The translations under genes were made by a program, and so were the position numbers. A DNA stretch of 64,000 nt, taken from Haloquadratum walsbyi J07HQW2. GTDB lineage: Archaea; Halobacteriota; Halobacteria; Halobacteriales; Haloferacaceae. A model generated the notes under the pieces. That model did no database searches, was not told the DNA's origin, and was given only the letters and a program-made list of their open reading frames with translations. Numbering within the stretch: the first letter of the stretch is position 1; each line of letters opens with the position of its first letter. The DNA is taken from positions 1,187,362 through 1,251,361 of the forward strand of contig NZ_KE356561.1 of NCBI RefSeq assembly GCF_000415985.1, in the 5' to 3' direction. This document shows positions 4,803 through 9,273 of this stretch, one piece after another.

Positions 4803-6039
4803 TTCGGAAATTGACACGGTCCGAATCTTCGACACGACGCTTCGTGATGGCGAACAGTCACCGCGCACATCATTCAGCTATGATGAGAAACGTGACATCG
4901 CCGCAACGCTTGATGAGATGGGAACACACGTAATTGAGGCAGGTTTCCCGGTCAATTCTGATGCTGAGTTCGAATCTGTTAGTGACATCGCATCTGCAAC
5001 GGAGACCACAATTTGCGGGTTAGCCCGCGTAGTTGACACCGACGTCGAGGCCGCGCTTGATTCTGGTGTTGGCTTGGTTCATGTATTCGTTAGCACGAGC
5101 GATGTTCAGTTAGCCGATTCAATGCATGCTTCTCAAGAGGAGGCTGTCGACCGTGCTGTTTCAGCCGTTGAGCGTGTGAAAGACGCCGGCGTTGAGGTAA
5201 TGTTTTCGCCGATGGATGCGACCCGAACCGACGGAGAATTCCTTAGCGAAATCCTCGAAGCAGTTGATGATGCAGGCGTTGATTGGGTAAATATTCCAGA
5301 CACCTGTGGGGTCGGGACCCCGACGCGTTTTGCCGGGTTAATCCGGAAAGTGCGAGCACATACGGACGCTCAAATTGATGTTCACGCACATGATGACTTC
5401 GGGCTAGCCACTGCAAATGCACTGGCTGGATTCGAGGCAGGTGCCGCACAAGCACAGGTTTCTGTCAACGGAATCGGTGAACGAGCCGGTAATGCTGCCT
5501 TTGAGGAGGTTGTAATGGCGGCTGAATCGCTATACGACGTTGACACTGGTATTGATACAACACGGATCACCGAGGTATCGCGACTGATCGAGAATGCGAG
5601 TAATATTCCAGTTCCTGGAAACAAACCTGTCGTTGGTCAGAACGCCTTCTCACATGAAAGTGGGATCCACGCTGCTGGTGTTATCGAAAACACTGATACG
5701 TTCGAACCAGGCGTGATGACTCCAGAGATGGTCGGTGCAAAACGTGAGTTTGTTCTTGGAAAACATACCGGGACACATTCAGTGCGAAAACGACTGGAGG
5801 AATCCGGATTTGCCCCGACAGATGAAGAAGTCCGGACAGTCACCAGACAGATCAAAGATTATGGCGCGGAGAAAGAACGGGTTACTATTGATGTGTTGAC
5901 ACGATTTGCTCGTGAAAATGGTGTCGACCGAAAAAAAGCCGCTCGGAGTGATGATGACGATGATGGGCACGATGACACTAGACCCGACAATAGCAATTCC
6001 ACTGATTCCGACCCCGACCATGGGGAGGTCCGTATCTAA
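4762..6039 (+). CDS. leuA: 2-isopropylmalate synthase family enzyme LeuA
   Basis: Condenses acetyl-CoA with 2-oxoisovalerate, the first committed step to leucine; the closely related citramalate synthase (CimA) uses pyruvate instead and cannot be excluded by motif alone. Signature elements: FDTTLRDGEQSPRTSF, NIPDTCGVGTPTRF, the metal-binding HAHDDFGLATAN, and ISHESGIHAAG-like FSHESGIHAAGV. The C-terminal regulatory domain of long LeuA forms is absent; an acidic tail takes its place. No ATG, GTG or TTG occurs in frame between the promoter and the catalytic domain. The position given starts at CTG 4762; a +1 shift from the ORF at 4722 is the alternative. First gene of the ilv-leu operon. Confidence 0.85.
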   Translation: MVEFFQGTLAHITDSEIDTVRIFDTTLRDGEQSPRTSFSYDEKRDIAATLDEMGTHVIEAGFPVNSDAEFESVSDIASATETTICGLARVVDTDVEAALDSGVGLVHVFVSTSDVQLADSMHASQEEAVDRAVSAVERVKDAGVEVMFSPMDATRTDGEFLSEILEAVDDAGVDWVNIPDTCGVGTPTRFAGLIRKVRAHTDAQIDVHAHDDFGLATANALAGFEAGAAQAQVSVNGIGERAGNAAFEEVVMAAESLYDVDTGIDTTRITEVSRLIENASNIPVPGNKPVVGQNAFSHESGIHAAGVIENTDTFEPGVMTPEMVGAKREFVLGKHTGTHSVRKRLEESGFAPTDEEVRTVTRQIKDYGAEKERVTIDVLTRFARENGVDRKKAARSDDDDDGHDDTRPDNSNSTDSDPDHGEVRI

Positions 6040-6207
6040 TGCGTTTACGGCGGACCGATTGCAGTACCAAGTGGTCAGGTTGTAATTACTCATCTCACGG
6101 TTACGAAATAACACAGGGATACGAGGAACAAGCCCAACACTGTACCGATGGGATATTGAGTAAAGAGCGCATATCAAGACAGTCTAATCGGAGGCACAAC
6201 GTTCTTT

Positions 6208-6405
6208 ATGCTCGAAAGCAACTTCCAGGTAGTAACACTAATGCGAGCATATTATCAGCGAAATACCGTGGGAGTCTTGCAAGGTCAGGCTCGAATTTGG
6301 ACTCAAGTTCCCACTGTGTTTCAAACTATCATAAACACTGTTCAAGATCGTCTGGACAGCGCTCGCGGTATCGGCGTCGACGTTCGTATTGTAGGGGCTC
6401 TTTAG
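6208..6405 (+). CDS. Candidate Val/Leu/Ile-rich leader ORF before ilvB
   Basis: A 65-residue ORF starting MLESNFQVVTLMRAYYQ and ending VDVRIVGAL. By hand count about 20 of 65 residues are Val, Leu or Ile, and about 41 of 65 codons begin with a purine, a coding-like bias not shown by the overlapping frame. A GGAGG sequence lies 13 bases upstream of the ATG. Its TAG stop (6403-6405) falls inside a hairpin. Position, composition and stop placement would suit a leader peptide sensing charged branched-chain tRNAs ahead of ilvBNC. It might equally be a small ordinary protein or a remnant. Confidence 0.35.
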   Translation: MLESNFQVVTLMRAYYQRNTVGVLQGQARIWTQVPTVFQTIINTVQDRLDSARGIGVDVRIVGAL

Positions 6406-6409
6406 CCCC
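6394..6409 (+). promoter_or_regulatory. GC-rich hairpin in the ilvB leader
   Basis: Perfect stem GGGGCT / AGCCCC with a four-base CTTT loop, followed 12 bases later by a T-run (ATTTTT). The stop codon of the Val/Leu/Ile-rich ORF lies at the loop and 3' arm, so a ribosome at the end of that ORF would prevent the stem from forming. This could act as an attenuator or terminator in front of ilvB. Confidence 0.4.
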
Positions 6410-6691
6410 ATCACTTACCCATTTTTCACCTCGTTGCTTGCTTTGTCCGCCGTTGATGTCACAACATGAGCGATACAATATGGTATCAGGACTTCCACTG
6501 CCGCATGACGCTGTAGGTGGTAATGGAAGCGATTCTGAATGTATGTGTTTGCATCCGACTGAAGTTATGAGGACATCCCGGACAGAAGCAATCGAGCGTA
6601 CTACCACGACGTTGAGACAACCAACTAACCTACAGAAGCAGTCGCGATCACGGTCAAATCATAATCACAACTACGAGGATCATATGAGCCA

Positions 6692-8485
6692 ATGAGTAAA
6701 CAAGCATCAACAAACCCAGATATCGAGACAGAAGCAGACACAGACGCACAGCCACAGGCACAACAACCATCACCGGAGACGACGAGTGATGTCTTGCCGA
6801 TTGAGACCGGTGCAGATGCAGTTATTCGGGCACTTGAAAATGAGGGTATCGAAGCCGCGTTTGGTGTGCAGGGCGGCGCAATCATGCCAGTGTATGACGC
6901 ATTATACTATTCTGATATTCGTCATGTAACAATGGCACATGAACAGGGAGCCGCACATGCTGCTGATGCCTATGGTGTCGTCAAGAATGAGCCAGGTGTT
7001 TGTATGGCCACCTCAGGTCCTGGTGCAACAAATCTTGTGACTGGAATCGCTGACGCAAATATGGATTCTGATGGGATGCTCGCGCTGACTGGACAAGTTC
7101 CATCAGATATGGTCGGTTCAGATGCATTCCAAGAGACAGATACGATTGGTATGACCGCACCACTCACCAAACATAATTATTTTGCTGATGATGAAGACAC
7201 AATCGGCAGTACAGTTGGTGAGGCGCTTGCACTTGCCGATGAGGGGCGACCAGGTCCAACACTTGTCGACCTTCCAAAAGATATTACAAGCGCTGATACC
7301 GAGCGTGAGCCTACTCCCGGCAAAGCGCCAGCAACAACACGACCACAATATAGCGCTGATGAGGATTCGGTTCTTACTGCAGCAACCGCGATTGAGGAGG
7401 CATCACGACCGTTATTATTGTTTGGTGGCGGTGTAATCAAGGCCGGTGCAACTGAGGAAGCGCGCGCGTTCGCTCGCGAGCACGAGATTCCTGTTGTCAC
7501 CACAATGCCTGGTATTGGTTCCTTCCCTGAGGACGATGACCTGTGTCTTTCCTGGGCAGGAATGCATGGCACCGGCTATGCAAACATGGCAATCACCCAC
7601 ACTGACCTTCTGATTGGTGTTGGGACGCGTTTCGATGATCGACTCACCAGTGGCGTTGATACTTTCGCGCCCGAGGCAGAGATCATACATATCGACATCG
7701 ATCCTGCAGAGATTTCAAAGAACGTTTACGCAGATTATCCATTGATTGGTGATGCCGAGACGGTGCTTGAACAACTTGATACGACCATCGAGACGGCTCC
7801 AAACACAGATGAGTGGTGCGAGCAGTGTGTTGAGTGGCAAGAGTCCTACCCGATGGATTATGCGATGCCGGAGGATGAACCGCTGAAACCACAGTTCATC
7901 GTTGAGGTGATGGATGAAGCAACAGCGCCGGATACAATCGTCACAAGCGGCGTTGGACAACACCAAATGTGGGCATCACAGTATTGGACGTACACTGAGC
8001 CACGAACATGGGTGTCGAGTCACGGACTTGGAACGATGGGATATGGACTTCCCAGTGCAATCGGTGCACGGATCGCGGCTGATGATGATCAAGATGTTGT
8101 GTGTATCGATGGTGATGGCTCTTTCCTGATGACGATCCAGGAGCTTTCAGTGGCTGTGCGTGAGGAACTTGATATTACAGTTGCAGTCCTGAATAACGAA
8201 TATGTCGGGATGGTGCGACAATGGCAGGATGCCTTCTTTGAGGGTCGACGAATGGCATCAGAGTATAATTGGTGTCCAGAGTTCGATACACTCGCAGAAG
8301 CATTTGGAGCAAACGGATTCCGAATCGATGAGTACGATGAGGTTGCAGAGACCGTCGAAGCAGCACTCGATTACGATGGTCCATCAGTGATCGATTGTCA
8401 TATCGACCCCGGAGCAAATGTTTATCCGATGGTTCCTTCTGGTGGTGCGAATGGGAAATTCGCTCTGACGGAGGATCAACTATGA
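6692..8485 (+). CDS. ilvB: Acetolactate synthase large (catalytic) subunit
   Basis: Thiamine diphosphate enzyme joining two pyruvates to acetolactate (valine, leucine), or pyruvate and 2-oxobutyrate to acetohydroxybutyrate (isoleucine). An acidic N-terminal tail of about 35 residues precedes the TPP-binding N domain with the activating Glu in TMAHEQGAAHAADAYG, then the central domain (LLLFGGGVIKAGA), then the C-terminal TPP/Mg motif GDGSFLMTIQEL ending NNEYVGMVRQWQ. Length 597 residues is slightly above the usual 550-575 because of the tail. The ATGA overlap with ilvN implies coupled translation. The long leader upstream suggests separate control of ilvB within the operon. Confidence 0.95.
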   Translation: MSKQASTNPDIETEADTDAQPQAQQPSPETTSDVLPIETGADAVIRALENEGIEAAFGVQGGAIMPVYDALYYSDIRHVTMAHEQGAAHAADAYGVVKNEPGVCMATSGPGATNLVTGIADANMDSDGMLALTGQVPSDMVGSDAFQETDTIGMTAPLTKHNYFADDEDTIGSTVGEALALADEGRPGPTLVDLPKDITSADTEREPTPGKAPATTRPQYSADEDSVLTAATAIEEASRPLLLFGGGVIKAGATEEARAFAREHEIPVVTTMPGIGSFPEDDDLCLSWAGMHGTGYANMAITHTDLLIGVGTRFDDRLTSGVDTFAPEAEIIHIDIDPAEISKNVYADYPLIGDAETVLEQLDTTIETAPNTDEWCEQCVEWQESYPMDYAMPEDEPLKPQFIVEVMDEATAPDTIVTSGVGQHQMWASQYWTYTEPRTWVSSHGLGTMGYGLPSAIGARIAADDDQDVVCIDGDGSFLMTIQELSVAVREELDITVAVLNNEYVGMVRQWQDAFFEGRRMASEYNWCPEFDTLAEAFGANGFRIDEYDEVAETVEAALDYDGPSVIDCHIDPGANVYPMVPSGGANGKFALTEDQL

Positions 8486-9273
8486 GTTCTGAATCGAATG
8501 CCGATGCCGATACTGACACTGACAGTGATACCAACGCCAGCGCAGACGCCGAAATGGAGTCGACAGACACGTCGGCAGTTGAGATGGTCGAACGAGGAAA
8601 TCCAACCCCTGACACAGATGGTGATCTTCCAGAACAGGGGATGAAAGGGGCTGAGCCAGCTGATCGACCGCATCCATCTGGACGACGCAATGAGCAGGGG
8701 ATCCGCGTCGACCCAGAAGCCGCAGCAGAATATGACCCACGACGTGCGGTGTTATCTGCGCTTGTTGAGGATGACCCTGGTGTTCTGTCACGGGTTACCG
8801 GGCTGATTTCACGACGACAGTTTAATATTGAAAGCTTAACAGTCGGACCGACAACAATTGATGGGCATTCACGAATCACGATGGTTGTCGAGGAAACGGA
8901 ACCAAATATTGACCAGATTGAAAGACAGCTCGATAAACTCAAACCTGTGATTGCCGTTGGGGAACTCGCTGATGATGCAATTCGGACTGAGCTTGTGTTA
9001 TTGAAAGTTCGCGGAAATGAGCCTGATAAGGTCAATGCAATAACACAGATGTATGAGGGTAAGACCATGGATGCTGACCCACAGACGATTACAATCCAAC
9101 TTACCGGTGATGAACAGAAGATTGACAGCGCTATCGACGCATTCGAACAGTTCGGAATCATTGAGATAGCTCGAACAGGATATACTGCGTTGGCGCGTGG
9201 TGATACAGCGACCGTTCCCGGCGAAAAGCCAGGAACAGCAAATGAACCAACAAAACCAATAAATACACGATGA
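8482..9273 (+). CDS. ilvN: Acetolactate synthase regulatory subunit
   Basis: Small subunit that activates IlvB and gives feedback inhibition by valine. The start is set by the ATGA overlap with ilvB at 8482; the open frame extends further upstream but would lie inside ilvB. The first 85 or so residues are an acidic, low-complexity extension ([17 protein letters not shown]). The ACT domain then begins at [25 protein letters not shown] and is followed by a second regulatory domain ([16 protein letters not shown]). At 263 residues it is about 80-100 longer than typical bacterial IlvH, mostly through this tail. It overlaps ilvC by four bases. Confidence 0.93.

Follow-up and report, generated by a model that had tools for sequence, protein, structure and literature searches.

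A conserved leader ORF and stop-bearing hairpin before ilvB in haloarchaea: a putative ribosome-mediated attenuator

What is the role of the 652 nucleotides that separate leuA (stop at 6039) from ilvB (ATG at 6692) in Haloquadratum walsbyi J07HQW2? We have considered this question in the window, by which we mean the whole 64,000-nucleotide stretch of DNA analyzed here, and in the corresponding loci of related genomes. An initial annotation, made from the window's letters alone, had put the gap at about 650 bases, in line with the exact count, and had suggested that a leader peptide within it controls ilvB by attenuation. Bacterial leader-peptide attenuation is textbook knowledge, and the mechanism requires transcription and translation to be coupled. 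In our judgment, the gap probably controls the ilvB operon as a ribosome-mediated attenuator, one that would sense charged tRNA-Val and tRNA-Ile. Its anatomy, reading frame, conservation and codon specificity can be read directly from the genomes; transcription itself is unobserved, and ribosome stalling, transcript termination and any response to amino acid supply are inferences. In H. volcanii, disruption of ilvB1 (HVO_1508) leads to auxotrophy for Val, Leu and Ile (PMC4300041), and thus control of this kind would act on a biosynthetic step that is needed in minimal medium.

The leader ORF, its promoter and its hairpin

The ORF of 65 codons (6208–6405) proposed in the initial annotation is present, and valine, leucine and isoleucine account for 20 of its 65 residues (31%). 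Its frame and stop codon stand. Its start probably does not, because the ATG at 6208 overlaps a TATA-like box (Table 1); this makes the ATG at 6241 the likelier start and the ORF 54 codons long, in agreement with a conserved MR... start in the relatives. With the leader ATG as the point of alignment, the relatives are richest in A+T at -33 to -27, and a block rich in A covers -38 to -36, the arrangement of a BRE plus TATA; the window's own AT-rich block lies at -38 relative to the leader ATG. The usual archaeal promoter spacing would place the start of transcription within a few bases of that ATG. Because the TATA box lies about 33 nt upstream of the ATG, the leader mRNA is itself probably leaderless.

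Table 1. Features of the leuA–ilvB gap and of the gene behind it, in window coordinates
Feature	Position	Strand	Remark
TATA-like box TTCTTTAT, leader promoter	6202..6209	+	Identical in Haloquadratum relatives L014, L015, L131
uORF1, leader ORF (MRAYYQ...GVDVRIVGAL, then stop)	6241..6405	+	54 codons plus TAG; start inferred; short in-frame ORF in 81/81 loci
Proposed sensor codons ATT (Ile) and GTA (Val)	6388..6393	+	GTA in 81/81 loci
Hairpin GGGGCT-CTTT-AGCCCC with the leader stop codon TAG (6403-6405) inside	6394..6409	+	Stem of 5–9 bp in 81/81 loci
T5C tract, candidate termination site	6422..6427	+	12 bases past the hairpin; TTTTC in excess in relatives
uORF2 frame	6456..6695	+	TGA (6693-6695) overlaps ilvB ATG; start uncertain among several ATGs
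ilvB, acetolactate synthase large subunit, putative controlled gene	6692..8485	+	Pfam TPP_enzyme N, M and C domains

The stop codon had also been described as buried in a GGGGCT/AGCCCC hairpin with a T-run behind it, and these elements are found where that description placed them, the TAG straddling the loop and the 3' arm. Folding of the window sequence by itself gives the hairpin a local z-score of only -1.92, and 5 of 200 shuffled sequences did equally well, so that a single sequence is insufficient proof of the structure; the proof comes from comparison. We assembled a first set of 81 gaps, namely the window and 80 public loci around ilvB (including that of Haloquadratum walsbyi J07HQW1, L131), and examined each individually. 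Every one of them has a short ORF that closes with an in-frame GTAGGGG and ends in the residues IVGA, VGA or VGV. The codon preceding GTA is ATT in 62 loci, ATC in 18 and GTA in 1. Stems of at least 5 bp can form in 81/81 loci versus 16.9 expected when the 3' side is shuffled, and the arms co-vary, a lost inner C-G pair being replaced by T-A or the stem being extended outward to GTAGGGG/CCCCTAC.

The reading frame is maintained as well. Counted for the three frames, an ATG-started ORF reaches into the hairpin uninterrupted in 78, 0 and 10 of the 81 loci, and a stop codon follows GTA-GGG within three codons in 76, 0 and 0. The stop lies inside the hairpin in 76 of the 81 loci, and its place is kept while its identity varies (TAG in 58, TAA in 15, TGA in 8). 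In five Natrialbaceae the stop codon is 12 bases further on, past the hairpin, and in Haloferax the loop is shorter by three bases and the stop comes one codon earlier, with the frame maintained. The body of the peptide behaves otherwise: changes between close relatives are spread over the codon positions as 80/94/83, with 151 nonsynonymous versus 43 synonymous codon changes, and it follows from this even spread that the peptide itself is not under selection. The richness of the body in Val, Leu and Ile, which had been noted in the initial annotation, is not kept among the relatives and is not the signal; only the last codons are conserved.

Because the genomes are related, these counts cannot be taken as independent events, but they span most families of the order. 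A GTAGGGG leader is also present at 22 of 25 additional loci taken from other families and degenerate at one, and no such leader was found before ilvB in two deep families (f9 and f11). In a DNA search of the genus, matches beyond the two nearest relatives were confined to 55–60 bases around the hairpin, and these were always located in the leuA–ilvB gap. When up to two mismatches are allowed, 243 of 392 genomes from the order contain the pattern TTGTAGGGGCNNNNTAGCCCC, and the reversed control pattern also gave scattered chance matches; Halorubrum, Halonotius and Natronocalculus lack the exact pattern and carry variants such as GTAGGGGTATAACCCCCTAC and ATTATTATTGTAGGGGCCTAGTCCCCTAC. Lack of conservation in near relatives would have counted as refuting the attenuator, according to the annotation that proposed it; the ORF end, the hairpin with its stop and the promoter are in fact kept across Halobacteriales.

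What follows the hairpin is less uniform. A TTTTC within 50 nt behind it is found in 31 of the 81 loci versus 4.1 in shuffled sequence, T5 is found in just 5, so that a strong T-run is often missing, and the 16 bases directly behind the hairpin are nearly without G in the relatives. RNAalifold, applied to four genera, revealed no shared antiterminator or second common hairpin. In H. volcanii, the T5C motif terminated 95% of transcripts in a reporter, and a hairpin gave 59% termination in one test (PMC7237163). Further downstream, a mini-ORF coupled through ATGA to the ilvB start is present in 68 of the 81 loci, versus 2 and 1 in the other frames, and the role of this uORF2 is probably translational coupling to ilvB. 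Its product is rich in R, T and P. A frame of 218 codons (6039-6695, +) also covers the entire gap, without interruption in three Haloquadratum genomes, that of the window included; it probably owes its existence to the uORF2 frame and a scarcity of stop codons.

Codon signals before ilvB, valS and pheS

Copies of the motif retrieved from many genomes stand before ilvB (64 copies) and before valS (34), and 4 are opposite-strand sites of the same kind; among the retrieved copies none precedes any other gene. The four codons before GTA differ with the gene, being 43% Ile in ilvB leaders and 30% Val, with Ile never seen, in valS leaders. A search of 22 genomes with GGGGCNNNNTAGCCCC, which admits other amino acids before the same hairpin, returned 1–2 sites per genome, mostly the ilvB or valS leaders and a few without GTA. 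The ilvB-type element precedes valS in many families; in f4, f6 and f7 it is present there as a duplicate with Val-type codons (valS loci L132-L178 and L273-L295), and in the f7 genomes a downstream stretch, CCCCGTTTCGACGGATGTATTGTC, is strongly conserved at the valS element. The valS leader is absent from Haloquadratum and Halobellus, in which valS appears to be leaderless. The window's genome has two valS-like genes about 9 kb apart (L192 and L194, at about 2214288 and 2223204 of G000:C1), one of which adjoins a masked stretch.

A third leader emerged from a de novo scan for short ORFs with the stop codon in a hairpin, run over 2.0 Mb of a genome of family f7 (G191). The scan gave few candidates, and the single convincing one, MAAESQVRASDGTRPQRPRSGFGFFFAR followed by its stop, lies before pheS (L395:12246-12332, +). 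Leaders of this kind, about 26 aa long, of the leaderless type and ending in GFGFFFA(A/R) and a stop, precede pheS in 35 of 40 haloarchaeal loci from many families, and the window's own genome is without one. They are rich in Phe and unrelated in sequence to the ilvB element, and placement of the stop in a hairpin is not general among them. On their 3' side there is a conserved GGTGGA...hairpin...GAAACCG element, for which no Rfam family was matched. Across the three genes, then, the control codons fit what lies downstream: Ile, Leu and Val for ilvB, Val without Ile for valS, and Phe for pheS. It is difficult to see how three leaders could each match the specificity of their own gene unless ribosomes read the codons.

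Over 80 loci, GTA makes up 4.8%, 5.9% and 2.1% of the Val codons of leuA, ilvC and leuC, and 0.18% and 0.69% of those of ilvB and ilvN; it is 10- to 30-fold rarer in ilvB and ilvN (6692-9273 in the window, L052-L130 in the relatives) than in leuA and ilvC. In valS genes that bear a leader its share is 0.84%. ATT has no comparable contrast, at 6.5–8.9% of Ile codons and 7% in ilvB. Genes needed during valine shortage thus appear, on these counts, to have been purged of GTA, the proposed stalling codon of the leader ribosome. The gene ilvC is generally a strongly expressed one, and because it belongs to the same operon and is not depleted of GTA, high expression alone is a weaker explanation of the avoidance. 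It counts against an attenuator that in the AT-richer window GTA reaches 14% of Val codons and so is no rare codon there. Against it, too, are the failure to find an alternative antiterminator fold in four genera, the often weak T-run behind the hairpin, and the five Natrialbaceae with their stop beyond it.

Inferred mechanism and rival readings

In the scheme that we favor, transcription would start at the promoter within the gap, at the leader ATG or a few bases upstream of it, and a ribosome would translate the peptide, which has Ile-Val(GTA)-Gly-Ala among its final sense codons. Of these, the Gly and Ala codons would double as the 5' arm of the GC hairpin, with the stop codon in or beside the loop. 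With charged tRNA-Val and tRNA-Ile abundant, the ribosome would get to the stop and leave, the hairpin would form, and RNA polymerase would tend to terminate at the pyrimidine- or T-rich tract behind it. With valine or isoleucine scarce, the ribosome would stall at ATT/GTA against the hairpin, its footprint would hold the arm open, and transcription would continue into uORF2, whose translation would be coupled to that of ilvB. The footprint of a ribosome reaches about 12 nt beyond the codon it is reading, on the downstream side (PMC4833913), and a stall at ATT or GTA would therefore mask the 5' arm and loop and leave the hairpin unable to form. Such a scheme has no need of an antiterminator, and none was found in the four genera folded; lacking a mutually exclusive antiterminator, it would be an attenuator-like variant rather than a member of the classical type. 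Read-through in starvation and termination in plenty would be the physiologically sensible sign. The earlier suggestion of leader-peptide attenuation is supported to this extent, that the ORF end, the stop-bearing hairpin and the promoter are conserved and the residues before the hairpin track the downstream gene.

A broader proposal, toward which we lean with more reserve, is that haloarchaea have an old regulon, comprising at least ilvB, valS and pheS, in which a ribosome on a leaderless mini-ORF would sense charged tRNA. At ilvB and valS it would do so by sitting on a single hairpin, deciding without an antiterminator whether RNA polymerase reads on, and GTA would be the valine sensor codon, purged from the genes needed in valine shortage.

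Several other readings of the gap are conceivable. The same leader, with the same sensing by a stalled ribosome, could have a different output, namely termination by FttA/aCPSF1 on the G-poor pyrimidine tract, cleavage of the RNA, or reinitiation at uORF2 and so translation of ilvB. The nearly G-free 16-base tract behind the hairpin, the conserved uORF2 coupled to ilvB, and the attribution of archaeal polarity to FttA (PMC12548453) would all suit such an output. A strict stop-bearing hairpin with a T(n)C tract, however, suits a terminator directly, and a hairpin stopped 59% of transcripts when tested in H. volcanii (PMC7237163); for these reasons we give hairpin-assisted termination the larger share and regard the alternative outputs as possible but unlikely. 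Much less probable is nascent-peptide arrest of the TnaC or ErmCL type, in which the conserved I-V-G-A end itself would stall the ribosome. Although the last residues, IVGA or IVGV, are near-invariant, the body of the peptide is under no amino acid constraint, the Gly-Ala codons are accounted for by the hairpin arm, the residues ahead of GTA vary with the downstream gene, and the avoidance of GTA in ilvB indicates effects of codons and not of a peptide. The mark of arrest peptides such as TnaC, SecM and ErmCL, a conserved nascent chain in the exit tunnel, is not met.

It could also be argued that the ORF is incidental and that a protein regulating valine metabolism binds the palindrome, as an operator or in the RNA, since GTAGGGG is strictly conserved as nucleotides and common to ilvB and valS. 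A regulator's site would not explain why the frame, the position of the stop codon and the ATG are all maintained, why changes in the arms preserve pairing, or why the pheS leader follows the same plan in a different sequence; we consider this reading very improbable, and its DNA-operator form is rejected on the frame and covariation evidence. Hardly tenable at all is the idea that the gap codes for an ordinary protein of 218 aa (6039-6695). This frame is open in the window and two Haloquadratum relatives, at 50–51% identity, and it overlaps leuA at its start and ilvB at its end, but it is conserved in Haloquadratum only and no counterpart turned up elsewhere in the family, it has no Pfam match and an NCBIfam match at chance level only, and its conserved 3' part is accounted for by uORF2. 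A T-box, riboswitch or other Rfam leader RNA was rejected, as there was no Rfam match in the window or in the loci of seven relatives.

Relation to known systems

The ribosome-mediated transcription attenuators of ilv operons in bacteria are exemplified by ivbL-ilvBN and ilvL-ilvGMEDA of E. coli. Like them, the haloarchaeal leader is a short ORF with Val, Ile or Leu codons by a hairpin, upstream of acetolactate synthase genes. Unlike them, it belongs to an archaeon and probably to a leaderless mRNA, has its stop inside a single hairpin with no antiterminator seen, confines its signal to the last few codons, and is followed by a second mini-ORF coupled to ilvB. The pheST attenuator of E. coli, with its leader peptide PheM, resembles the haloarchaeal valS and pheS leaders in placing a synthetase gene behind a leader rich in the synthetase's own amino acid, whereas the sequences, the hairpins and the domain of life differ. 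In bacteria such as B. subtilis, valS is under T-box RNA control instead. In tnaC-type leaders, a ribosome at the stop codon controls termination; the analogy is that a ribosome standing at the leader stop, or close to it, determines whether transcription proceeds downstream, and the difference is that the haloarchaeal leader has no conserved peptide body and a codon signal that varies with the downstream gene.

The leader element itself has no Rfam, Pfam or meaningful NCBIfam match. The initial annotation had called this mechanism unestablished in haloarchaea, and we likewise found no report of archaeal leader-peptide attenuation in open-licence PMC full texts; the subscription literature and preprints lay outside this search, and an earlier description may therefore exist. 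An instance conserved throughout an archaeal order would extend leader-peptide attenuation to a second domain of life, one with a eukaryote-like RNA polymerase and mRNAs that are mostly leaderless, and would allow a direct in vivo test of archaeal transcription–translation coupling. It also suggests a rule by which further cases might be sought: short leaderless ORFs, with cognate codons at their end, before synthetase and biosynthesis genes. In the scanned f7 genome, a possible leader containing Val, Leu and Ile, MDTEEYPNPIETERVLLRIRPDRVL and then a stop in a hairpin, which may be chance, precedes a second acetolactate-synthase-like gene (G191:C1 near 1485156, - strand).
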